Positions 11,117 to 62,944 of a stretch of DNA of 64,000 nucleotides are shown in pieces; position 1 is the stretch's first letter, and every line of letters starts with the position of its first letter. The notes beneath the pieces were generated by a model that worked only from the letters and a program-made list of their open reading frames with translations, had not been told where the DNA came from and did no database searches. Origin of the DNA: Sphingopyxis sp. H115. Lineage in GTDB: Bacteria > Pseudomonadota > Alphaproteobacteria > Sphingomonadales > Sphingomonadaceae. The stretch is from the NCBI RefSeq assembly GCF_001468465.1, contig NZ_LNSA01000006.1:1-64000 (forward strand), read 5' to 3'. The position numbers and the translations under genes are program-made.

Positions 11117-11208
11117 CGGGCGATGCTGCCGTACGCGACGCCGCAGGCCCAGCGCAGGTCGATCGGTTTTCGCGCCATTGCGGAAACAGTCGCCGCGACT
11201 TGACCAAA

Positions 11209-11220
11209 ATCGTATACGAT
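11209..11220. promoter_or_regulatory. Palindromic GntR-type operator upstream of aldehyde dehydrogenase
   Basis: The perfect 12-base palindrome ATCGTATACGAT lies 97 bases before the start of the aldehyde dehydrogenase gene. Its GTATAC core is the type bound by FCD-subfamily GntR regulators. An identical palindrome lies in the hydroxyproline cluster promoter at 58610-58621, close to a GntR/FCD gene. I infer that the same regulator controls both places. Confidence 0.75.
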
Positions 11221-11316
11221 GCGACGAGACACTCTCCGCGGAATCGCCCACCACGACGAAAACAGCCAGGGCCTCGCCGACCCCATTCCTCCCCCGGGAA
11301 CGATGAAGGACGATAT

Positions 11317-12885
11317 ATGATTGCTGGTTCGATACTGATCGGCGCGGCCGAAGATAGCGCGGCGGAAAGTTTTGCCGCGGTCGACCCCGCGACCGGCGAG
11401 GCGATGGCACCTAAGTTCGCCGCGGCCGATCCTGGACATGTCGACCGTGCCTGCGTACTCGCCGACGCCGCCTTCGCGAGCTTTTCCGAAACCGCTCCTG
11501 GCGAACGCGCCGCCTTTCTGGAGGCGATCGCCGACGGTATCGCCGCGATCGGCGACGCGCTGATCGAGCGCGCGATGGCCGAGAGCGGCCTGCCGCGCGC
11601 GCGGCTCGAAGGGGAACGCGGCCGCACGATAGGACAGCTCAGGATGTTCGCCGCCTTCGTGCGCGCGGGCGACTGGCTGCATGCGACGATCGACCCGGCG
11701 ATGCCCGATCGCGCGCCGCTGCCGCGCCCCGACCTGCGCCGCCGCCATGTCGCGCTCGGCCCGGTGGCGGTGTTCGGCGCGAGCAATTTCCCGCTCGCCT
11801 TCTCGGTCGCCGGCGGCGACACGGCGTCGGCGTTTGCCGCCGGCTGTCCCGTCGTCGTCAAGGGCCACCCCGCACATCCCGGCACGGGCGAACTGGTCGC
11901 GCGCGCGATCCGCGCGGCGGTCGCAAGCTGCGGCCTACACGAAGGCGTCTTTTCCTATCTCCCCGGACCGTCGAACGCGCTCGGCGCCGCGCTCGTCGCG
12001 GATCCGCGGATCAGGGCGGTCGGTTTCACCGGGTCGCGCAGCGGCGGACTTGCGCTGATGCGCATCGCAGCCGCGCGCGCCGAGCCGATCCCCGTCTATG
12101 CCGAAATGAGCAGCATCAACCCCGTCATCCTGTTTCCTGCCGCGCTGCAAAATCGCGCCGACACGCTGGGCGAAGCCTTCGCCCAGTCGCTGACGATGGG
12201 TGCGGGGCAATTTTGCACAAACCCCGGGCTGCTGGTCGCAATCGGCGGCCCCGACTTCGACCGCTTCGTCGCGGCGGCAGGCGCGGCGCTGGCGGGCATT
12301 GCGCCGGCGACGATGCTCACCCCCGCGATCCACGCGAGCTTTGAAAGCGGGGTCGCGGCGCTCGAAGGACATCAGGGAACGCAGCTTGCCGCCCGCGGCG
12401 CCGATGGCCCCGGCGCCTGCGCGGCGCTGTTCGTCACCGACGCGGCGACCTTCGGCGGCGATGCCGCGCTTGGCCATGAAGTGTTCGGCGCTTCCTCGAT
12501 CATCGTGCGGTGCCGCGATATCGACGAGGTGGCGTCGGTCGTCGCGGGGCTGGAGGGCCAGCTCACCGCCACGCTCCAGCTCGACGCCGACGACGAGGTG
12601 CTGGCGGCGCGGCTGCTGCCACTAATCGAACGCAAGGTCGGACGCATTCTCGCCAACGGCTGGCCGACGGGGGTCGAAGTGTGTCACGCGATGGTGCACG
12701 GCGGGCCCTATCCCGCGACGTCCGACGGTCGCAGCACCTCGGTCGGCACGCTCGCCATCGAACGCTTCCTGCGCCCGGTCAGCTATCAGAACCTGCCCGA
12801 AAGCCTGCTGCCGGCGGCGCTGAAGCCCGCCAACCCGTGGCACATCGCGCGCCGCGTCGACGGTGTGCGCATCGCGGGCGATTGA
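11317..12885 (+). CDS. Aldehyde dehydrogenase, probable alpha-ketoglutarate semialdehyde (2,5-dioxovalerate) dehydrogenase
   Basis: A 522-residue NAD(P)-dependent aldehyde dehydrogenase. The ATG at 11317 is preceded by GAAGGA; the longer open frame upstream is ignored. Visible motifs are FGASNFPLAF (about residues 153-162), the nucleotide-binding FTGSRSGG (238-245), catalytic Glu263 in AEMSSINP and catalytic Cys300 in GAGQFCTNPG. The FGASNFPLAFSVAGGDTASAFAAG region and the GAGQFCTNPG motif are typical of 2,5-dioxovalerate dehydrogenases, which oxidise alpha-ketoglutarate semialdehyde to 2-oxoglutarate, the last step of hydroxyproline and some sugar-acid pathways. A GntR operator shared with the hydroxyproline cluster lies upstream and supports the hydroxyproline role. 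Confidence 0.88.
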   Translation: MIAGSILIGAAEDSAAESFAAVDPATGEAMAPKFAAADPGHVDRACVLADAAFASFSETAPGERAAFLEAIADGIAAIGDALIERAMAESGLPRARLEGERGRTIGQLRMFAAFVRAGDWLHATIDPAMPDRAPLPRPDLRRRHVALGPVAVFGASNFPLAFSVAGGDTASAFAAGCPVVVKGHPAHPGTGELVARAIRAAVASCGLHEGVFSYLPGPSNALGAALVADPRIRAVGFTGSRSGGLALMRIAAARAEPIPVYAEMSSINPVILFPAALQNRADTLGEAFAQSLTMGAGQFCTNPGLLVAIGGPDFDRFVAAAGAALAGIAPATMLTPAIHASFESGVAALEGHQGTQLAARGADGPGACAALFVTDAATFGGDAALGHEVFGASSIIVRCRDIDEVASVVAGLEGQLTATLQLDADDEVLAARLLPLIERKVGRILANGWPTGVEVCHAMVHGGPYPATSDGRSTSVGTLAIERFLRPVSYQNLPESLLPAALKPANPWHIARRVDGVRIAGD

Positions 12886-12959
12886 AGGGACATCCCGGCC
12901 CAGAAAGGGGGGTGACCATATCGCTACGGCCGCCCCAGTGGTCAGGATGACGGAAAATC

Positions 12960-13097
12960 TTACGGCGCCGCAGCGATTTCGGGCAGCGCGGCGTTGAAAC
13001 CCGGGAGGCTGACCCCGCCGCCGGCGATGAACTGGTCGAGCCGCGCTTCGCCGAAAGGGAAGCGAGCGAAAGGGAAGCGGCACCGGACCGCGGACAT
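12960..13097 (-). pseudogene. Short unrecognised ORF or C-terminal gene remnant
   Basis: A 45-codon frame (ATG at 13097, TAA at 12960). Its last 35 residues read like a normal protein end (ARLDQFIAGGG then SLPGFNAALPEIAAAP). A 15-base duplication at about 13052-13079 produces the repeated RFPFA/RFPFG pentapeptide. I do not recognise the family. There is no convincing ribosome binding site, so a leftover C-terminus is as likely as a small gene. Confidence 0.3.
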
Positions 13098-13169
13098 GCG
13101 GCGCGACGGCGCATCGCCAGATCTTCGTGATTACGCCGCAACCTGCCCGACGAGCTGGTCGCGCTGATC

Positions 13170-13448
13170 GTGGAGAAGGATGTACTGCGCAGCGTTCGCG
13201 CAAATTACATTATCGGCGATTATCGGCGGAAACATCTGGCGAAATGTGCTGAGGTCGAGGCGCGGCAGGCGAAAATGCCAGCGGCGGCGGCGAATGCCGA
13301 ACGCTGGCGGCGGCTCGAGGCGATGGACGACAATCAGGACGTGCAGGCGCGGAGTGCTGACGGAGGAGCGACCAGCGCGACGTCGCCGCGCTCTCGAGGC
13401 GCCTGCGGCGTCGCCCCCCTCTCCATGGCTTCGCCGCGAGGAGGATAA
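13170..13448 (+). other. Unrecognised ORF, possible gene remnant
   Basis: From a GTG at 13170 the frame encodes EKDVLRSVRANYIIGDYRRK and a further charged helical stretch (HLAKCAEVEARQAKM). It then drifts into Ser/Gly/Arg-rich sequence that does not look coding. The first ~60 codons have protein-like composition and also read back to about 13131 without a start. No family is recognised and no good ribosome binding site is visible. It could be the tail of a lost gene. Confidence 0.25.
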
Positions 13449-13479: not shown

Positions 13480-14562
13480 CTAGCCGCCGCTCCGCGCAAG
13501 GAGGTCGATCAGGTCGGCCTTCCAATGGACCGCCCAGGTGTGCGTGCCATGGCCGCGCGTGGCGTCGCTTTCGGCGATCAGGCGAAAGCGCGCATTGGGC
13601 ATCCGTTTTAGCGCCTGCTGCGGAATGTCCAGGTTGCGCGGATTGATGAAGTCGTCGGCCGAGTTGATCCACGTCATCGGCGCGGTGATCTTTTCGAGAT
13701 GGGGCCAGGGATTATAGGTCCGCGACGATTCGAACTGATAGATCATGTCGTTGGCGTCACGGTTCGCGATATCGCGCGCGACCCGTTCGCGCACATAGGT
13801 GGCTGCGGCATCGCGCGTAGGATAATTTTTCTGAAGGTTCAGCGGCGCGCCGCCCGCGACCACGGACAGTGACGCCGCAGTGCGCAAGCCCAGATGTGGC
13901 TGGCTTTTATACTCGCCGCCCATCCACGCCGGGTCGGCCTTGATCCCGTCAATCAGCATCTGGCGCCACATGCGGTTCAATCCCGCAATCTCGACCGGCT
14001 GGCACGCCAGCGGCATCAGCGCCTGCGCAAAATCGGGATAGGCCTCGCCCCAGATGAAACCGTGCATGCACCCCATCGATGTACCCATGATCAGGCGCAG
14101 CTTCGTGATACCCAGTCCCTCGGTGAGCATCCGGTGCTGCAATTCGACCATGTCGGCATAATCATATCGGGGAAATTTCATGCGGAGCCCGTCCGACGGC
14201 TTCGACGAGGCGCCATGACCGATATTGTCGGGCAGGATGATATAATAGCGATCGATGTCGAGCGGCTGGCCTGGGCCGTAGAGTTCGTCGGCGAATTGCG
14301 GTTGCAGGAATTGCTTGCCGCTGCCGCCTGTGCCGTGGAGGATCATCACCGCATTGTCGATCTCGCCCTTGGCATTTCGGTGCGGCGTGCCGAGGGTCGT
14401 ATAATGGATTCGCACCGCCGGCATCGCCTCGCCCGATCGGAAGCGGACATCGCGGATCGTGACGTCGCTTTCCTTCGTCGCCCATTTCGGCGGCGCGGCG
14501 GCCGGAGGCGTAGCCGGGGTGGCCGGCTGCATGGCGAGCAGGGCCAGGGTCAGAAACGTCAT
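13480..14562 (-). CDS. Secreted alpha/beta hydrolase, MetX (homoserine O-acetyltransferase)-like
   Basis: A 360-residue protein. The ATG at 14562 is chosen because it gives a signal peptide (MTFLTLALLAMQPATPA, cleavage after about residue 17-22); the frame runs further upstream without such a feature. The alpha/beta-hydrolase triad is visible: the nucleophile elbow GTSMGC (Ser162), an Asp in NSADDFINP near the C-terminus, and the His in GHGTHTWAVHW. The HYTTLG and LPDNIGHGASSKPSDGLR segments match the MetX-like group. With a signal peptide it is more likely a periplasmic esterase or acylase than a methionine enzyme. A degenerate copy of the GntR palindrome lies upstream at 14645-14656. Confidence 0.8.
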   Translation of the reverse strand: MTFLTLALLAMQPATPATPPAAAPPKWATKESDVTIRDVRFRSGEAMPAVRIHYTTLGTPHRNAKGEIDNAVMILHGTGGSGKQFLQPQFADELYGPGQPLDIDRYYIILPDNIGHGASSKPSDGLRMKFPRYDYADMVELQHRMLTEGLGITKLRLIMGTSMGCMHGFIWGEAYPDFAQALMPLACQPVEIAGLNRMWRQMLIDGIKADPAWMGGEYKSQPHLGLRTAASLSVVAGGAPLNLQKNYPTRDAAATYVRERVARDIANRDANDMIYQFESSRTYNPWPHLEKITAPMTWINSADDFINPRNLDIPQQALKRMPNARFRLIAESDATRGHGTHTWAVHWKADLIDLLARSGG

Positions 14563-14644: not shown

Positions 14645-14656
14645 ATCGTATACTAA
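14645..14656. promoter_or_regulatory. Degenerate copy of the GntR-type palindrome upstream of the hydrolase
   Basis: The sequence ATCGTATACTAA matches the 12-base palindrome ATCGTATACGAT at 10 positions, with the left half and GTATAC core intact. It lies about 80 bases before the hydrolase start. It might place the hydrolase in the hydroxyproline regulon, but with only a single half conserved this is weak evidence. Confidence 0.35.
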
Positions 14657-14703: not shown

Positions 14704-14778
14704 TGGTGACCCCTACGGGAATCGAACCCGTGTTTCAGCCGTGAGAGGGCCGCGTCCTGACCGCTAGACGAAGGGGCC
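14704..14778 (-). tRNA. tRNA-Glu (CTC)
   Basis: Read on the minus strand this 75-base segment starts GGCCCCTTCGTCTAG and ends GGGGTCACCA, with the CCA encoded. It forms a 7-bp acceptor stem (one G-U pair), the T arm GTTCGATTC and an anticodon loop CTCTCAC giving anticodon CTC, which reads GAG. It is close in sequence to the neighbouring tRNA-Glu. Confidence 0.95.
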
Positions 14779-14829
14779 TTGAGGGTCGGAGATTTTGCAG
14801 AACGGGGAGCCGACCGCTCCCGTGACCGA

Positions 14830-14905
14830 TGGTGACCCCTACGGGACTCGAACCCGTGTTTTCGCCGTGAAAGGGCGACGTCCTAGACCGCTAGACGAAG
14901 GGGCC
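14830..14905 (-). tRNA. tRNA-Glu (TTC)
   Basis: A 76-base tRNA on the minus strand starts GGCCCCTTCGTCTAG and ends GGGGTCACCA with an encoded CCA. The anticodon loop is CTTTCAC, anticodon TTC, reading GAA (and GAG by wobble). It lies 51 bases before the second tRNA-Glu, and the two are probably co-transcribed. Confidence 0.97.
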
Positions 14906-55718: not shown

Positions 55719-55894
55719 TCCGCGCGAGCGCCTCGTCGAGCACCGAATAGGTATGGGCATAGGTGCTGCCCCGACGTCGGGATCGGAGTCGCGCGTTCGG
55801 CACCAACGCCGTTCAGCGTATAGACGCCGATGCCGACGGTCGCGCCGAAGCCCAGCGCCACGAGATGCGGCGAGCTGAGCGCGTGGCGCGCAGC
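55719..55894 (-). pseudogene. Remnant of an APC-family amino acid permease
   Basis: On the minus strand this stretch reads SSPHLVALGFGATVGIGVYTLNGVGAERA, the first-helix signature of APC amino acid permeases. After a deletion and a one-base frameshift it reads GSTYAHTYSVLDEALARI, the later GSxYxYxYxxxGE segment of the same family (compare GSAYTYTYAVMGE in the intact permease at 21697-23253). A stop precedes the first fragment, and the remaining ten or so helices are gone. It lies just downstream of the GntR gene of the hydroxyproline cluster, so it may be the lost importer of that locus. Bases 55895-56000 show nothing further. Confidence 0.75.
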
Positions 55895-56000
55895 CTATGC
55901 CCCGCCTCCTGCTGCGAAACCGCGATGGGCCTTATCGGCCCGAAAATACCTGCTGCCCCTGCTCCTCCCTTGTGTCGGAGCCGACGGTAGCCGGCTCCCG

Positions 56001-56648
56001 TCAATCGTCGACAAGCTGTTGCCTGAGGTCGTCCAGCGTCTTGCGGATATGCGCGTCGACCAGCGTCGTGATCCGGCTCGCGTCGCGCGCGAGCCAGGCT
56101 TCGAGCAGCTGGCGATGTTCCTTGTTCGCGCGTTCGTCACGCCCCAGGGGTTCGAGGTGAACGCGCACATAGCGTTCGGACAATACCTGCAGCCGTTCGA
56201 GAATGCTGACCGTGATCGGCTGGCCGCACGGGCGGAACAGCGCGCGGTGGAAGGCGCGGTTGAACGCCCCGACCCCGTCGCCATGTTCGTCGGTGACATG
56301 GTCGAGCGTCTTGAGCGTTTCGATCGCATGCCCATGGTCGGCCTCGGTCGCGCGGAGCGCGGCGAGCGCCGTTGCCTCAGGCTCCAGCTTGATACGCAGC
56401 TCATAAACCTCCCTCGCCTCTTCGGCGCTCAAAGGCCGGACGAAGAAGCCCCGGTTCGCCTGCGAACGGACCAGCCCCTCTTCTTCGAGGCGCGCCAGCG
56501 CTTCGCGCAGCGGGATCTTGCTGACTCCGAGTTCGGCGGCGAGCGCGTCTTGGCGGATGGCATGGTCGCTGGTAACGGCACCCGAAAGGATGCGGTCGCG
56601 GACGAGGTCCACCAGCTGGTCAGAGAGGTTTCGGATGACGAGGCTCAT
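56001..56648 (-). CDS. GntR/FCD transcriptional regulator, probable hydroxyproline regulator
   Basis: A 215-residue FCD-subfamily GntR regulator. The winged HTH (about residues 8-75) has DALAAELGVSKIPLREALARLEEEGLV. The FCD ligand domain follows: AREVYELRIKLEPEA, and AFNRAFHRALF and EHRQLLEAWLARDA with the usual metal/ligand His and Asp. It is the last gene of a minus-strand set with the epimerase and deaminase, seven bases after the epimerase, which fits a HypR-like regulator that senses hydroxyproline or a pathway intermediate. Its likely operators are the GTATAC palindromes at 58610 and 11209. Confidence 0.9.
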   Translation of the reverse strand: MSLVIRNLSDQLVDLVRDRILSGAVTSDHAIRQDALAAELGVSKIPLREALARLEEEGLVRSQANRGFFVRPLSAEEAREVYELRIKLEPEATALAALRATEADHGHAIETLKTLDHVTDEHGDGVGAFNRAFHRALFRPCGQPITVSILERLQVLSERYVRVHLEPLGRDERANKEHRQLLEAWLARDASRITTLVDAHIRKTLDDLRQQLVDD

Positions 56649-56655
56649 TCATGCC

Positions 56656-57654
56656 TCATAGCACCGAAAATCCATTCCAGAAGCTGTCTGCTTGATCGAC
56701 CCAGATCGTGTTGAATCCGGTCGCGATGGCCGATCCTTCGATCGACGGAATGATGGCGGGGGTGATGCCGAGCGCCGCGGCTTCGTCGACACGCCCGATG
56801 AAGCGGCTGCCGATATAGCTTTCGTGGACAAAACGGTCGCCGACCTTGAGCTGCCCGTTGGCCACGAGCTGCGCCATCCGGGCCGAGGTGCCGGTGCCGC
56901 ACGGGCTGCGATCGATCGCGCGCTCGCCGTAAAAGACCGCGTTGCGGCCGTCGGCGCCCTCACTCTTGGGCCGGTCGGTCCACATCACATGGCTGACCCC
57001 CCGGATACGCTCGTCGAGCGGATGCACCGGCTCGCACGCCGCCTGCATCAACGCGCGGACGGTACGGCTCAAATCGACGATCCGCGACGCGCCGAGCGCG
57101 TCGAGCCCGATATAGGGGCCCTGCGGTTCGACGATCGCATAATAATTGCCGCCATAGGCGACATCGACCTTGAGCCGGCCAAAACCGGGGACATCGATTT
57201 CCACACCTTCGGCAGCAAGGTAGGAGGGCACGTTGCGGAGGCGCACCCACGCGACCCGCTCGTCCTCGGTTCCATATTCGATGTCGATGATGCCGGCGGG
57301 AACCTCGACGCGCAACTTGCCCGGGGTCCGCGGGGCGATCAGCCCGTTCTCGAGCCCGAAGGTCACGAGGCCGATCGTCCCATGCCCGCACATCGGCAGG
57401 CAGCCGCTGGTTTCGATGAATAATATGCCGATGTCGCTGTCCGCCTGCGTCGGCGGATAAAGGAAGCCGCCCGACATCATGTCGTGCCCGCGCGGTTCGA
57501 AACAGAGGCTCGTGCGGATCCAGTCGAACCGCTCGAGGAAATCCTGGCGCCGCTCACCCATCGACCCGCCGCGAAGGAGCGGCGCACCGCCGGCGACCAG
57601 CCGGACCGGATTGCCGGCCGTATGGCCGTCGATGCAGAAAAAGGTGTGGCGCAT
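56656..57654 (-). CDS. 4-Hydroxyproline 2-epimerase (proline racemase family)
   Basis: A 332-residue cofactor-independent epimerase converting trans-4-hydroxy-L-proline to cis-4-hydroxy-D-proline, the first catabolic step. The two catalytic cysteines are present: Cys89 in MCGHGTIG and Cys252 in DRSPCGTGT. A Thr in the second position would mark a trans-3-hydroxyproline dehydratase, so the epimerase is favoured. The start at 57654 follows GGGGAG; the open frame extends 18 codons further. It lies between the DapA-like deaminase and the GntR gene on the same strand. Confidence 0.92.
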   Translation of the reverse strand: MRHTFFCIDGHTAGNPVRLVAGGAPLLRGGSMGERRQDFLERFDWIRTSLCFEPRGHDMMSGGFLYPPTQADSDIGILFIETSGCLPMCGHGTIGLVTFGLENGLIAPRTPGKLRVEVPAGIIDIEYGTEDERVAWVRLRNVPSYLAAEGVEIDVPGFGRLKVDVAYGGNYYAIVEPQGPYIGLDALGASRIVDLSRTVRALMQAACEPVHPLDERIRGVSHVMWTDRPKSEGADGRNAVFYGERAIDRSPCGTGTSARMAQLVANGQLKVGDRFVHESYIGSRFIGRVDEAAALGITPAIIPSIEGSAIATGFNTIWVDQADSFWNGFSVL

Positions 57655-57671: not shown

Positions 57672-58586
57672 TCAGGCCGCCAGCTTGCTCGGTTGGGTCG
57701 CCGCGCATTTTTCGACCATCGCGATCACATCCTTGCGGCGTTGGCCGGCGAGCGGCAGGCGCGGCAGCCGCACGCGTTCGGACCCGCGTCCCATGATCGC
57801 TTCGGCAAGCTTGATCGACTGGACGAGATCATGTTCGGCGTCGAGGTGGAGCAGCGGCATGAACCAGCGATAGATGGCCCGCGCCTCGTCATATTTGCCC
57901 TCGTTGAACGCCTCGACCAGGCGGACCGATTCGGTCGGGAAGGCGCTCGTCAGCCCGGAAACCCAGCCGCTGGCGCCGAGGAACAGGCCCTCGAGCGCGA
58001 CATCATCGAGCCCAGCCATCATCGTGTAGCGGTCGCCGAAGCGGTTGAAGACGTCGGTGAAGCGGCGCGGATCAGGCGCGCTTTCCTTGACCGCGACGAT
58101 ATTGGGCACGTCGCGCAGCGCTTCGAGCGTCGCGAAATCGACATCGACGCGATAGGCAGGGGGATTGTTGTAGAGCATGATCGGCAACGCCGTCGCTTCG
58201 GCTACCGCGCGGAAATGCGCCTGCAGTTCTTCGGGCGTCGGCACATAGACCATCGCGGGGAGCAGCATAAGCGCGTCGGCGCCCAGTTTTTCGGCGTCCT
58301 TCGCATATTGGACTGCACGCGCGGTGGTCAATTCGGATATCCCGGCGACGATCGGCACGCGACCTGCGATCGCCTCGACGGCGCCCGTCAGCACCTTGCG
58401 CTTCTCATCGGGTTCGAGCGAGTTATTCTCGCCGCAGGTGCCGAGGATGATGAGCCCGGTCACGCCGTCGTCGACGAGCGCGCTCTGCACGCGCTGGGTC
58501 GCAGTGTAATCTACCGACAGATCTTCGCCGAATTGAGTGGTAGCTGCGGGATATACGCCTTCCCACAGGGTCCTTATCACGCTCAT
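57672..58586 (-). CDS. DapA-family lyase, probable pyrroline-4-hydroxy-2-carboxylate deaminase
   Basis: A 304-residue class I aldolase-fold protein. The Schiff-base Lys167 is in VAVKESAPD and the catalytic Tyr139 in MLYNNPPAY; GTCGENNSL is the usual pyruvate-loop variant. In hydroxyproline loci such DapA relatives deaminate Delta1-pyrroline-4-hydroxy-2-carboxylate to alpha-ketoglutarate semialdehyde. The context (epimerase, D-hydroxyproline dehydrogenase, GntR) makes this role far likelier than lysine synthesis. GGAGG lies just before the start, and the operator is 24 bases upstream. Confidence 0.88.
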   Translation of the reverse strand: MSVIRTLWEGVYPAATTQFGEDLSVDYTATQRVQSALVDDGVTGLIILGTCGENNSLEPDEKRKVLTGAVEAIAGRVPIVAGISELTTARAVQYAKDAEKLGADALMLLPAMVYVPTPEELQAHFRAVAEATALPIMLYNNPPAYRVDVDFATLEALRDVPNIVAVKESAPDPRRFTDVFNRFGDRYTMMAGLDDVALEGLFLGASGWVSGLTSAFPTESVRLVEAFNEGKYDEARAIYRWFMPLLHLDAEHDLVQSIKLAEAIMGRGSERVRLPRLPLAGQRRKDVIAMVEKCAATQPSKLAA

Positions 58587-58609
58587 TCATACCTCCGTTG
58601 AAGCCTCAG

Positions 58610-58621
58610 ATCGTATACGAT
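58610..58621. promoter_or_regulatory. Palindromic GntR-type operator in the divergent hydroxyproline promoter
   Basis: The perfect palindrome ATCGTATACGAT lies in the 44-base gap between the divergent deaminase and dehydrogenase genes, so it can control both directions. It is identical to the site at 11209-11220. It ends only nine bases before the dehydrogenase ATG, so the bound regulator would block the very start of that transcript. Confidence 0.82.
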
Positions 58622-58630
58622 ATATGATAA

Positions 58631-59908
58631 ATGATGCCAAATGATTTTCCATCGCGCGTCCCCGACCCGCACACGGCCGTCGTCATCGGCGGTGGCGTAG
58701 TCGGCCTTGCCACTGCCATCGCGCTGCAAAAGCGGGCCATTGCTACCCTGTTGATCGATTCGCCCCTGCTGGTTCCGAGGGCGTCATGGGGCAATGCGGG
58801 CCATATCGCCATCGAGCAGATCGAACCGCTCGCCTCGCGCGCAACGATCCGGTCGATGCCGCGGCGCCTGTTCTGGCGCGGCGGCGCGCTGTCGCTGCCG
58901 CTGCGCGATATCGCGGCGTGGCTGCCCTTCGCGCTGCGACTGGTCGCCGCGACGCGTCCGGTGCGATTCGCGTGCGGCTGCGCGGCACTGTCCGACGCGA
59001 TGGGCGATGCGATGGGTGCCTGGCGCCGGCTGCTCGGCGACATCGGTGCGCCCGACCTGCTGATCGAGGACGGCCATTATATTATGTGGGAAAGCGCGGC
59101 GAGCGCCGCAAAGGGGCGGGCGCACTGGTCCGCCGCGGATATCGGCCGCGCGTCGATGCGCGACGCGACTGCGGACGAACTCGAACGACTCGCGACGCTG
59201 ACCTCGGCGCCGGTTGCCGGCGCGGTGCACATCGCGGGGTCGGGGCAGATCGCCGACCTCGATGCGCTCGGCGCTGCGCTGCGCGCGGGCTTCGACGCCG
59301 CCGGGGGCATACGAATCGAGGCGCGGATCGACCGGCTGGTGGTCGAGGACGGCCGCGCCATCGCCGTCGCCGCCGACCGGACACGCCACGCGGCCGACGC
59401 GATGATCGTCGCGGGCGGCGCCGCATCGGGCGCGCTGCTCGGGCCGGTCGGGCACCGGGTGCCGATCATCGCCGAGCGGGGTTATCATATCCAGTCGGCC
59501 GAAACCGACTGGCCGCGCGACATGCCGCCGGTGGTGTTCGAGGACCGGTCGATGATCGTCACGCGCTTCCGTTCTGGGCTGCGGGCGGCAAGCTTCGTCG
59601 AATTCGGCCGCGGCGCGAGCCCCGCCGATCCGCGCAAATGGGCACGGCTGCGCCGTCATGTCGCCGCGCTCGGCCTGTCCTTCGGCTTGCCCGGCGCCGA
59701 ATGGATGGGCGCGCGGCCGACGCTGCCCGACTATCTGCCCGCGATCGGGCGGAGCGACCGGGCGGCGAACCTCTTCTATGCCTTCGGGCATCAGCATCTC
59801 GGCTTGACGCTTGCCGCGACGACGGGCGACGCCGTCGCCGCGATCGTCGCGGGCGATGCCCCGCCTTTCGACCTTGCCCCCTTTGACCTCAACCGTTTCG
59901 GAGCCTGA
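58631..59908 (+). CDS. FAD-dependent D-amino acid (D-hydroxyproline) dehydrogenase, DadA-like
   Basis: A 425-residue FAD oxidoreductase of the DAO/DadA group. The Rossmann motif is VIGGGVVGLATA (about residues 18-29), and the C-terminal PDYLPAIGRS and YAFGHQHLGLTLAATTG segments are typical of DadA-like enzymes. In this locus it should oxidise cis-4-hydroxy-D-proline to Delta1-pyrroline-4-hydroxy-2-carboxylate. The start is 58631 or 58634. No Shine-Dalgarno is visible because the operator occupies the region, so the mRNA may be leaderless. It is followed after one base by the prolidase gene. Confidence 0.9.
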   Translation: MMPNDFPSRVPDPHTAVVIGGGVVGLATAIALQKRAIATLLIDSPLLVPRASWGNAGHIAIEQIEPLASRATIRSMPRRLFWRGGALSLPLRDIAAWLPFALRLVAATRPVRFACGCAALSDAMGDAMGAWRRLLGDIGAPDLLIEDGHYIMWESAASAAKGRAHWSAADIGRASMRDATADELERLATLTSAPVAGAVHIAGSGQIADLDALGAALRAGFDAAGGIRIEARIDRLVVEDGRAIAVAADRTRHAADAMIVAGGAASGALLGPVGHRVPIIAERGYHIQSAETDWPRDMPPVVFEDRSMIVTRFRSGLRAASFVEFGRGASPADPRKWARLRRHVAALGLSFGLPGAEWMGARPTLPDYLPAIGRSDRAANLFYAFGHQHLGLTLAATTGDAVAAIVAGDAPPFDLAPFDLNRFGA

Positions 59909-59909
59909 C

Positions 59910-61112
59910 ATGACCAGCGGAATCGGCGGATCGACCGCCGCACAGGAACTTGCCACCATCGCCCCTTGGGCCGACCGCGCGGCGCCGATCACCGCCGACG
60001 AGCGCGAGGCGCGTATCGAAAAGGCGCGGCGGCTGATGCACGCGAACGGCGTCGACGCGCTGCTGATCGGGGCAGGCGCGAGCCTGCGCTATTTTGCCGG
60101 CATCCCATGGGGGGCGAGCGAACGTCTCGTCGCGATGCTGCTCCCCGCGCGCGGCAAACCGATCGTCATTGCGCCGGCTTTCGAGCTCGGCACGCTCGAG
60201 GCCGATCTGAAGATCACGGTCGAATTGCGCCTGTGGGAAGAGGATGAGAGCCCGTCGACGCTCGTCGTCGGTGCGCTACGTGAATTGGGCGCGACGCGGC
60301 TCGCGATCGATCCCGCGATGGCGTTCCTGTTCGTCGATCGCATCCGCCGCGCCGGGCCGTCGCTCGACCTGATCGACGGCGGCCCGGTCGTCCACGGTTG
60401 CCGGATGTATAAATCCGCCGCCGAGCTCGCGCTGCTCCAGCAGGCGAAATCGATGACACTCGAAGTACATCGCCGCGCGGCGCGCATCCTGGTCCCCGGC
60501 ATCCGCGCGAGCGAGGTCACGCGTTTCCTCGATGAAGCGCACCGCAAAATCGGGGCGTCCGGCGGGAACAGCTTCTGCATCGTCCAGTTCGGCCGCGCGA
60601 CCGCCTTCCCGCACGGGCTTCCCGGCGACGCGATCTTGCAGGAGGGTGATGTGGTGCTGATCGACGTCGGCTGTGTCATCGAAGGCTATAACTCGGACAT
60701 CACGCGCACCTATGTTTTCGGCGAGGCCGACGCCGAACAGCGGCGCATGTGGACGCTCGAACAGGAGGCGCAGGCCGCCGCATTCGACGCTGCGCGCCCC
60801 GGCTTGTCGTGCGAAGCGGTCGATGCCGCAGCGCGCGCGGTGCTCGAAGCGGCGGGGCTCGGTCCCGATTACCGCCTGCCCGGCCTGCCGCACCGCACCG
60901 GGCACGGCATCGGCCTGTCGATCCACGAGCCCGCCTATCTGGTGCGCGGCGACACGACCCCGCTTGCGCCCGGCATGTGCTTCTCGAACGAACCGATGAT
61001 CGTGATCCCCGACCGCTTCGGCATCCGGCTGGAGGATCATTTCTACATGGCCGAGGACGGTCCGCGCTGGTTCACCGAACCTTCGCCCGCGATCGACCGG
61101 CCGTTCGGCTAG
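59910..61112 (+). CDS. M24 family Xaa-Pro peptidase (prolidase)
   Basis: A 400-residue pita-bread metallopeptidase. An N-terminal creatinase-like domain is followed by the M24 catalytic domain with all five metal ligands: Asp252, Asp263, His332, Glu361 and Glu375 (LIDVGC, NSDITRTY, TGHGIGLSIHE, SNEPM, LEDHF). Such enzymes cut Xaa-Pro (and Xaa-Hyp) dipeptides. The ATG at 59910 is one base after the dehydrogenase stop; the upstream open frame is ignored. Its place in the operon suggests that hydroxyproline is taken from collagen- or plant-derived peptides. Confidence 0.9.
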   Translation: MTSGIGGSTAAQELATIAPWADRAAPITADEREARIEKARRLMHANGVDALLIGAGASLRYFAGIPWGASERLVAMLLPARGKPIVIAPAFELGTLEADLKITVELRLWEEDESPSTLVVGALRELGATRLAIDPAMAFLFVDRIRRAGPSLDLIDGGPVVHGCRMYKSAAELALLQQAKSMTLEVHRRAARILVPGIRASEVTRFLDEAHRKIGASGGNSFCIVQFGRATAFPHGLPGDAILQEGDVVLIDVGCVIEGYNSDITRTYVFGEADAEQRRMWTLEQEAQAAAFDAARPGLSCEAVDAAARAVLEAAGLGPDYRLPGLPHRTGHGIGLSIHEPAYLVRGDTTPLAPGMCFSNEPMIVIPDRFGIRLEDHFYMAEDGPRWFTEPSPAIDRPFG

Positions 61113-61270
61113 CCGAGCAGCGCCCGCACATCTTCGTAGAGCGAACGCGGCAGCCGTGCGCCCTGCCCGGTGATTGCGTCGAACACCGCGCCCGTCGCGA
61201 AATCGAACACATAGGGTAGGCGCCTGGGCTGGGCCAGCCGAAGGCGATCGGGTTGGTCCCGTCCTTGCCT
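61109..61270 (-). pseudogene. Frameshifted remnant of an Ldh_2-family dehydrogenase/reductase
   Basis: On the minus strand the stretch reads KDGTNPIAFGWPSP, the hallmark GTNPIAF motif of the Ldh_2 (malate/sulfolactate/ureidoglycolate dehydrogenase-like) family. After a one-base shift it reads LPYVFDFATGAVFDAI, matching the family's (V/I)xDMATSxVA segment. It then continues GQGARLPRSLYEDVRALLG and stops, which resembles the family C-terminus with the middle deleted. The family includes Delta1-pyrroline/piperideine-2-carboxylate reductases used in imino-acid catabolism. It directly abuts the hydroxyproline operon and shares its stop-codon bases with the prolidase end. Confidence 0.65.
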
Positions 61271-61867: not shown

Positions 61868-62944
61868 ATGTGCGCGATGGACACCCCGCCGTTCCCCCGA
61901 CTGAACGCTCTCGCCACTGCGGTGCCGGGCCATGACGTCCATCAGGCCTTCATCGACTGGGCAACGCCGCGCATCGCCGACGAGCGGACGCGCGCGATCT
62001 TTACCCGCATGGCGGCACGATCGGGAATCGAGCATCGCTGGTCGGTGCTGCCGCCGACCGCGGACGGCGGCTCCCCCGTCTCGCCTGGCGGCTTTTACGA
62101 CGTCGCCGGCCTGCCGCCGACCTCGGCGCGCATGGCCGCCTATGCGCGCCACGCGCCCGGGCTGGCGATGCAGGCGATCACCGCGCTCGGCGACGCGTTC
62201 GATCCGGGGCGCATAACGCATCTTGTCGTCGCGAGTTGTACCGGGTTCGTCGCGCCGGGGATCGACCAGATCATCGCGCGGCGGCTCGGCCTTTCGGCCA
62301 CCGTCGAGCGCGTGCTGATCGGCTTCATGGGCTGCTATGCCGGGGTCACCGCGCTGCGCAGCGCGCGGCATATCGTGCGGTCAGAACCCGGCGCGGTCGT
62401 GCTGATGGTGAGCGTCGAGTTGTCGACGCTGCACCTCAGCCTCGCCGACGCGCCCGAACCCCTGCTCGCGATGCTTCAGTTCAGCGACGGCGCGGCGGCG
62501 GGGATCGTATCGGCCGCGCCGCACGGCCCCGAACTCGGCGAGGGACGGAGCCTCGCGCTCGAAGACAGCGCCGAGTTGATCCGCTGGGACATCGGCGACA
62601 AGGGTTTCGAAATGACGCTGTCGGGCGAGGTGCCGGGGCGGCTGCGCGAGGCGCTCGCTAATCCGGACGTCCAGCGCGAGCTGTTCGGCGACAGCGGCGC
62701 GCCGCCGCTGCTCGCGGTCCATGCCGGAGGCCGGTCGGTGCTCGATGCGGTCGAACATGCGCTGGGCGCCGAACCGCACGCGCTTGTCGACAGCCGGTCG
62801 GTGCTCGCGCGGTTCGGCAATATGTCGTCAGCGACGATCCTGTTTGTGCTCGCCGAGATGATGGCACGCGGCGCGCGCGGCGACGGGATCGCGATCGCCT
62901 TTGGCCCCGGGCTCGCCGCCGAGGCGATCCGGTTCCGGGCATGA
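61868..62944 (+). CDS. Type III polyketide synthase
   Basis: A 358-residue chalcone-synthase-like enzyme. The triad is Cys156 (GFMGCYAG), His285 (LLAVHAGGRSVL) and Asn318 (RFGNMSSATI). It builds a small phenolic or pyrone product from an acyl-CoA starter and malonyl-CoA. The start is 61868 (or the ATG three codons in). It overlaps the next gene in an ATGA arrangement, and a methyltransferase and an FAD oxidoreductase follow, the standard set for alkylresorcinol/alkylpyrone-like products in bacteria. The starter unit cannot be told from sequence. Confidence 0.92.
   Translation: MCAMDTPPFPRLNALATAVPGHDVHQAFIDWATPRIADERTRAIFTRMAARSGIEHRWSVLPPTADGGSPVSPGGFYDVAGLPPTSARMAAYARHAPGLAMQAITALGDAFDPGRITHLVVASCTGFVAPGIDQIIARRLGLSATVERVLIGFMGCYAGVTALRSARHIVRSEPGAVVLMVSVELSTLHLSLADAPEPLLAMLQFSDGAAAGIVSAAPHGPELGEGRSLALEDSAELIRWDIGDKGFEMTLSGEVPGRLREALANPDVQRELFGDSGAPPLLAVHAGGRSVLDAVEHALGAEPHALVDSRSVLARFGNMSSATILFVLAEMMARGARGDGIAIAFGPGLAAEAIRFRA

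Follow-up and report, generated by a model that had tools for sequence, protein, structure and literature searches.

A palindrome shared by separated hydroxyproline genes suggests a regulon of a GntR-FCD regulator in Sphingopyxis sp. H115

Hydroxyproline genes and palindromes in the window

The stretch of DNA analysed here (the window) comprises 64,000 nucleotides of Sphingopyxis sp. H115 (contig NZ_LNSA01000006.1, positions 1 to 64,000) and holds a cluster of genes for hydroxyproline breakdown at 56.0–61.1 kb and, far from it, an aldehyde dehydrogenase (ALDH) gene. Perfect copies of the palindrome ATCGTATACGAT stand before the distant gene (11209–11220) and within the cluster (58610–58621). 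The original prediction had joined the two loci into a single regulon; both copies lie exactly where it had placed them, and no third perfect copy occurs within the window, as it had also stated. Its description of two far-apart loci is correct, the sites being 47.4 kb apart rather than the "about 45 kb" it had given. Complete for perfect copies, its inventory had overlooked a two-mismatch relative, ATCGTATACTAA, at 14645–14656.

The cluster consists of two divergent units. On the minus strand lie genes for a GntR-family FCD regulator (56001–56648), a predicted repressor judging from its Pfam GntR and FCD domains and its co-occurrence with the dehydrogenase described below, for a 4-hydroxyproline 2-epimerase (56656–57654; 538 bits to NF010578 against a cut-off of 376) and for a DHDPS-family protein with the motif VAVKES, probably a pyrroline-4-hydroxy-2-carboxylate deaminase (57672–58586). 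On the plus strand follow an FAD-dependent oxidoreductase of the Pfam DAO family, probably a D-hydroxyproline dehydrogenase (58631–59908) and 32% identical to its homologue in the Sinorhizobium meliloti hyp cluster, and an M24 peptidase of the proline dipeptidase type (59910–61112; 530 bits to the proline dipeptidase PDB 4r60). Epimerase, dehydrogenase, deaminase and regulator had been named before and their families are borne out by Pfam cut-offs; the prolidase-type gene had been missed. The epimerase translation holds two cysteine motifs, MCGHGT and PCGTGTS, the cysteines of which we take to be catalytic. The closest named relative is Sphingopyxis sp. JAI128, with which the window shares 95% identity in the GntR protein.

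The enzyme lacking from the cluster, alpha-ketoglutarate semialdehyde dehydrogenase, had been assigned to the distant locus, and a matching dehydrogenase is indeed encoded there on the plus strand (11317–12885; Pfam Aldedh). It shares 54% identity over 500 residues, and the motif GQFCTNPG, with the ALDH encoded in the S. meliloti hyp cluster (pSymB); of the candidates scored in its own genome it is the sole match at E 1e-60. We therefore regard it as a putative HypH-type alpha-ketoglutarate semialdehyde dehydrogenase. All six proteins pass Pfam cut-offs (GntR and FCD, proline racemase, DHDPS, DAO, M24 and aldehyde dehydrogenase), and the epimerase is the only one to pass a curated NCBIfam cut-off, so that the exact reactions of the other five rest on their neighbourhood.

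Both palindromes are predicted operators. The one at 58610–58621, in the divergent deaminase/dehydrogenase promoter, fills the gap between TTGAAG (58598–58603) and TATATG (58621–58626), which are 17 bp apart. The one at 11209–11220 is 108 bp before the ALDH start and is directly preceded by a −35-like TTGACC (11200–11205). As a side observation, the predicted −10 element of the dehydrogenase promoter ends 4 bp short of the ATG (58621–58633) and the transcript may, for that reason, be leaderless.

Conservation of the palindrome

Sphingopyxis JAI128, LC81, H053 and Root154 and Sphingomonadaceae bacterium 3R27C6 served as sister genomes. All five have a single exact copy of the palindrome, invariably upstream of the ALDH unit, and their dehydrogenase site differs from it by one mismatch. 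The distance from site to ALDH gene is 108 bp in JAI128 and approximately 330, 400, 935 and 935 bp in the other four. A core TTGACCA(A/G)AATCGTATACGATG is common to the promoters of the window, JAI128, LC81, Root154, Sphingomonas horti and S. changbaiensis. We also note a proC-like frame, recognised by eye, between site and ALDH gene in four sisters (L223–L226), whole in two and shortened in two; it is gone from JAI128 and the window, and the series perhaps represents the stepwise loss of an operon gene.

We also compared 199 genomes of the family, counting matches to the dehydrogenase and the ALDH at E 1e-60 and to the GntR protein at E 1e-40. The dehydrogenase was found at 24 places in 23 genomes and the GntR gene in 21, all among these 23. 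At 22 of the 24 places a GTATAC palindrome that departs from the window word at no more than three positions lies near the dehydrogenase start; scored by genome, the site is present at the dehydrogenase promoter in 21/21 genomes with the regulator and in 0/2 without it (p = 0.004). The loci fetched from the two exceptions, G003 and G159, contain no GTATAC, and neither genome has a GntR match. TTG and TA elements 15–17 bp apart flank the site at 15 of the 22 promoters, compared with TTG in 3 when a control stretch 40 bp further upstream is inspected. The ALDH is more widespread, at 59 places in 53 genomes. GTATAC lies within 300 bp of it in 6 of 23 copies from genomes that have the dehydrogenase and in none of 36 copies (33 genomes) from those that do not (p = 0.002).

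A second sample, the best 80 of 366 confirmed loci drawn by GntR profile (here, the named loci), gave a similar picture for the cluster itself. Counting deaminase genes with more than 60% identity and their start in view, GTATAC falls within 150 bp of the start in 59/59 of those scored, against a background of approximately 1.7% in the same DNA. At up to three mismatches and up to 250 bp upstream, the distance used below for all gene families of these loci and carrying a chance rate of approximately 2.8%, a site precedes 59/60 deaminase genes and 38/56 dehydrogenase genes, many of the other dehydrogenase genes lying further down the deaminase operon. Low scores for the epimerase (2/59), permease (3/64), M24 (5/41) and GntR (11/86) genes are what is expected of operon-internal genes. 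Core gene order varies among these loci (L142–L221; variants include L152, L163, L174 and L175), and one lineage has deaminase, epimerase and permease followed by the dehydrogenase rather than a divergent pair, with the palindrome still before the deaminase.

A third candidate member in the window

The overlooked ATCGTATACTAA reads TTAGTATACGAT on the minus strand and is a predicted operator 82 bp before the start of an alpha/beta hydrolase gene of the PRK06489 or MetX-like kind (minus strand, 13480–14562), whose product has a signal-like N-terminus and a GTSMG motif by eye. JAI128 has the identical operator word ahead of its hydrolase gene. Relatives of the hydrolase lie in or beside the hydroxyproline loci of six other family genomes (G081, G123, G144, G112, G083 and G043); the stretches retrieved from LC81 and Root154 showed none. 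From its operator and neighbours, the hydrolase probably belongs to the hydroxyproline regulon. Just upstream of it and its operator lie two tRNA-Glu genes (CTC and TTC anticodons; 14704–14905).

A probable hydroxyproline regulon with a distant member

Sequence comparison thus makes it very probable that the window carries a hydroxyproline regulon under one GntR-FCD repressor and that the distant ALDH gene is included in it. Control by the GntR protein we infer from its co-occurrence with the site. The single regulon first proposed is well supported by conservation and co-occurrence, and was drawn too small: it is larger in relatives and probably has a third gene in the window. The notion of an ALDH gene under its own operator likewise stands for the window and the five sisters and is not general in the family, where only 6/23 copies in dehydrogenase-bearing genomes have a close site; a universal ALDH operator was rejected on that count.

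Without substrate, a repressor dimer would occupy GTATAC-centred palindromes at four promoters, those of deaminase-epimerase-gntR, dehydrogenase-prolidase, ALDH and the alpha/beta hydrolase. The dehydrogenase-promoter site sits between the −35 and −10 elements, where a dimer would exclude RNA polymerase, making repression the likelier mode. A hydroxyproline-related metabolite would lift the repressor. L-hydroxyproline would be epimerised, oxidised and deaminated to alpha-ketoglutarate semialdehyde, which the distant ALDH would convert to alpha-ketoglutarate. In the window and JAI128 the ALDH-hydrolase part stands separately, with its operators kept, and gene loss in the window came later.

Several observations weigh against this reading. 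The two genomes that lack the regulator share one genus, and G159 is only 84% complete. The set is patchily distributed, all three other same-genus genomes in the sample lacking a match to dehydrogenase, ALDH or GntR. The −35/−10 layout is missing at 7/22 dehydrogenase promoters, and a clear −10 element was not seen by eye at the ALDH promoter, where the TTGACC element is clear. In the named loci a site within 250 bp precedes only 3/13 ALDH and 2/4 hydrolase genes. There is no GTATAC within 300 bp of 17/23 ALDH copies in dehydrogenase-bearing genomes. Four of these 17 (G001, the G095 cluster copy, G157 and G144) may be served by a site-bearing operon: in G001, G095 and G157 the gene follows gntR on the same strand and is perhaps part of the main operon, and the G144 copy stands behind a hydrolase gene that has an upstream site. 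For 13 of the 23 copies no link to a site was found. Three of the 23 dehydrogenase genomes (G003, G159 and G186) have no ALDH match, and 33 family genomes have the ALDH and no dehydrogenase; since each occurs without the other, the two are not tightly tied. Finally, the GntR protein is only about 25% identical to that of the S. meliloti hyp cluster (E 1e-9), or 27% in a profile comparison in which a longer open frame around the S. meliloti gene was used; these figures place the two proteins in one family and give no sign of close kinship.

The palindrome could instead be read by another regulator, with the linked GntR protein sensing something else. A second cluster in G112 has the site and no adjacent GntR gene, though one is present elsewhere in that genome, and the window's own genome contains other intergenic GTATAC words, such as TTAGTATACTAA beside a TonB receptor gene (C15:32411). 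We nevertheless consider this very unlikely: site and GntR gene occur together in all 21 genomes and are jointly missing from two, the gene follows the site on the strand encoding deaminase and epimerase, the wing-helix region is nearly invariant, with SKIPLREA unchanged across 19 aligned sequences including the window's, and the spacing of the palindrome matches that of the HypR group.

The ALDH might also be a general semialdehyde or fatty-aldehyde dehydrogenase acting mainly outside hydroxyproline breakdown, its operator being a side link. Its subfamily is found in more genomes than the dehydrogenase, as described above, two solved relatives (3v4c and 1eyy) are named only as aldehyde dehydrogenase, and alpha-ketoglutarate semialdehyde arises in sugar-acid pathways too. 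Against a general role, the site precedes none of the copies in genomes without the dehydrogenase. In several genomes a relative is found further downstream than the permease, on the same strand as the main operon, and others lie inside the single block of LC81 and Root154 and inside the S. meliloti hyp cluster. We regard a mainly general role as very unlikely.

Counts within the window would by themselves allow a chance origin of the palindrome. GTATAC is observed three times against 1.56 expected, a count reached by 19 of 100 shuffles, and ATCGTATACGAT at up to two mismatches three times against 1.09 expected (13 of 100 shuffles). A genome scan of the kind originally proposed was made in G000, the window's own genome (4.49 Mb). 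It yielded 3 exact, 5 one-mismatch and 84 two-mismatch copies, so the palindrome is not common genome-wide; the density of near matches predicts approximately 0.14 exact copies (P(≥3) ~4e-4). Given this rarity and the place of the exact copy before the ALDH unit in the five sisters, the single-regulon reading withstands the sequence part of the refuting condition set with the original prediction. Loose matches are not enriched, the degenerate pattern WYNGTATACNRW being found 11 times in the genome compared with 9 for its reversed control. With unremarkable counts in the window and hardly any enrichment of the loose pattern, the weight of the case rests on position and conservation. That the identical 12-bp words arose by coincidence, the second being functionless, or reflect general abundance can be dismissed given the genome-wide counts and the retention of the ALDH copy in five sisters and, amid otherwise different flanks, in Sphingomonas horti and S. 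changbaiensis.

The other copies in the genome were inspected as possible sites. The third exact copy (C17:36151) lies inside a 269-aa reading frame and was dropped. No hydroxyproline link was visible at the five one-mismatch copies (L004–L008): L004 and L006 are in predicted frames, L005 and L007 in no frame that passes the filter, and L008 is intergenic, directly ahead of a MarR-family gene. Nor was one seen at the WYNGTATACNRW sites in predicted frames (L115–L117), in a 187-aa open frame (L112) or ahead of an HlyD-type gene (L118). The perfect palindrome TTAGTATACTAA (L114) lies between the TonB receptor gene and a DUF3237 frame, just inside the latter by frame call, again with no hydroxyproline link seen; it is perhaps the operator of another regulator in the same family. 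One further site, ATGGTATACGAA at C1:166341 (L141:6342-9615), is 22 bp ahead of the ATG for a 1079-aa TolB-propeller/amidohydrolase protein that looks secreted by eye and has a weak, sub-cut-off likeness to an Xaa-Pro dipeptidase model. This gene is a possible fourth member of the regulon, outside the window.

A larger predicted regulon in relatives and its reduction in the window

In the named loci further gene families are preceded by sites within 250 bp: GH127 (the beta-L-arabinofuranosidase family) in 16/20 cases, DUF885 in 16/38, Ldh_2 in 13/26, DUF5695 in 4/10, an amidohydrolase in 2/3, GGT in 1/6, and two types of TonB receptor in 3/3 and 3/15. DUF5695 proteins (~900 aa) recur near GH127 and the palindrome (L081, L179, L183, L186, L188 and others) and are possibly another enzyme for hydroxyproline-linked sugars. 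In LC81 and Root154 the set, minus the hydrolase, forms one block of ~28–30 kb ending in the ALDH gene and its site. JAI128 has it as two blocks, its ALDH site lying 37 kb from its dehydrogenase site. Because two sisters carry the single block, we infer this arrangement to be the older one.

The window holds a reduced form of this larger regulon: genes for uptake, deglycosylation and peptide cleavage have been lost from it, leaving scars between the genes that remain. The gap between ALDH and hydrolase genes is 8,989 bp in JAI128 and 594 bp in the window, 452 of the 594 bp aligning to JAI128 at 79–90%; the scar at 12886–13346 is made up of a DUF885 gene end, a piece of the amidohydrolase-TonB receptor intergenic region and a piece of the amidohydrolase gene (13135–13346). 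Behind gntR, where relatives have an amino acid permease gene, 1,551 bp in JAI128 correspond to 282 bp in the window, of which 280 can be aligned with the JAI128 permease region, in two separate pieces (scar at 55719–55998, minus strand; 75% identity at the protein level over residues 24–55). Behind the prolidase gene, 7,159 bp correspond to 156 bp, of which 144 align to three pieces of JAI128 Ldh_2, a gene of the malate/L-lactate dehydrogenase family that relatives have here (scar at 61113–61261). Beyond this scar lies a type III polyketide synthase gene of the chalcone/stilbene-synthase-like kind (61868–62944), and JAI128 has one too.

A search of the window's genome for GH127 found no such gene. 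Relatives of other lost genes exist elsewhere in the genome and are not close counterparts (permease 64%, DUF885 ≤40% and TonB receptor ≤36%). The left third of the window (107–21636) is inverted relative to JAI128 (C3:470861–440994). The split of the pathway is common to the window and JAI128, its closest sister, and the gene loss in the window came afterwards. With the genes and operators that it retained, the strain should still be able to use free hydroxyproline and X-Pro dipeptides.

For the full gene set, a plant hydroxyproline-rich glycoprotein is the likeliest source of hydroxyproline, since GH127 enzymes are reported to release beta-L-arabinose from such glycoproteins; this is read from family names, by which substrates are not fixed. 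In sphingomonads and caulobacters one GntR operator might thus join the whole breakdown of these glycoproteins, the window strain being a natural scavenger after three deletions, a proposal we consider evenly balanced between right and wrong. The polymer would be captured through a TonB receptor and beta-L-arabinose removed by GH127, perhaps with DUF5695. Hydroxyproline peptides would then be cut by DUF885, the amidohydrolase and M24, imported, and the hydroxyproline oxidised to alpha-ketoglutarate. In the window strain the polymer-attacking half would have been deleted at three places, leaving the monomer half and the operators. Were this true, it would explain by what route plant-associated sphingomonads might use extensin-like wall proteins as food, and growth could be compared directly between sisters that have the polymer-attacking half and strains that lack it.

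Relation to known HypR systems

HypR regulons are already known, and the one described here is a variant, perhaps serving the use of plant hydroxyproline-rich glycoproteins. What the present analysis offers is an operator word for a sphingomonad hydroxyproline regulon that can be tested, a predicted place for the distant ALDH in the pathway, and DUF885, DUF5695 and the MetX-like hydrolase as likely new regulon members. A joint glycoprotein and hydroxyproline regulon was not described in titles or abstract openings of mostly non-subscription literature, and no functional study of DUF5695 or DUF885 was apparent from titles.

The passages on HypR in Leyn et al. (2016; PMC5343134), which cite the S. 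meliloti HypR of White et al. (2012), describe regulons of Proteobacteria with a GntR regulator, a core of epimerase, dehydrogenase, deaminase and semialdehyde dehydrogenase and a varying operon layout, as found here. In some lineages these extend to prolidases, TonB receptors, permeases and collagenases; prolidases, a TonB receptor and permeases are predicted members in the present system too. GH127, DUF885, DUF5695 and a MetX-like hydrolase are not named for HypR regulons in section 11 of that paper. As in HypR systems, a GntR-FCD regulator is encoded with the pathway genes and the core enzymes stand behind one operator, present at 58610 and 11209; across the wider family the ALDH gene often lacks such a site, and a GH127-family gene under the operator is found in relatives only.

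The operator agrees with HypR in its spacing and differs in its boxes. HypR sites have a gap of 2 nt between GT and AC in the passages on this group in Suvorova et al. (2015; PMC4494728), the same as in the GT-AT-AC found here. The TKGT/ACMA boxes of the FadR subfamily are replaced by TCGT/ACGA, the K position being occupied by C in 35 of 44 half-sites, a tally from 22 sites preselected to hold GTATAC. Beside the S. meliloti hyp-cluster GntR gene, taken as hypR from its place and flanked by TTGTCGACAA palindromes, the boxes are TTGT-CG-ACAA, compared with TCGT-AT-ACGA here. We therefore describe the window system as a probable HypR-like regulon variant, without claiming orthology to S. meliloti HypR.

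HypR of Streptomyces coelicolor (PMC6608401, in the parts of the paper on this regulator) is likewise a GntR-FCD repressor of hydroxyproline genes with a semialdehyde dehydrogenase gene away from the operon, and represses a putative collagenase gene too. It differs in its motif, CTNTGC(A/C)ATGTCAC, and in a three-subunit dehydrogenase, and the distant ALDH promoter was not tested there. GH127 beta-L-arabinofuranosidases acting on hydroxyproline-linked arabinose are described in passages on Bifidobacterium longum (HypBA1 and HypBA2) and Xanthomonas euvesicatoria (PMC6085000, PMC7263609 and PMC10850190). As presented there, these sets serve arabinose use or are controlled by HrpX, and no single operator links them to hydroxyproline breakdown, in contrast to the arrangement proposed for the sphingomonads.

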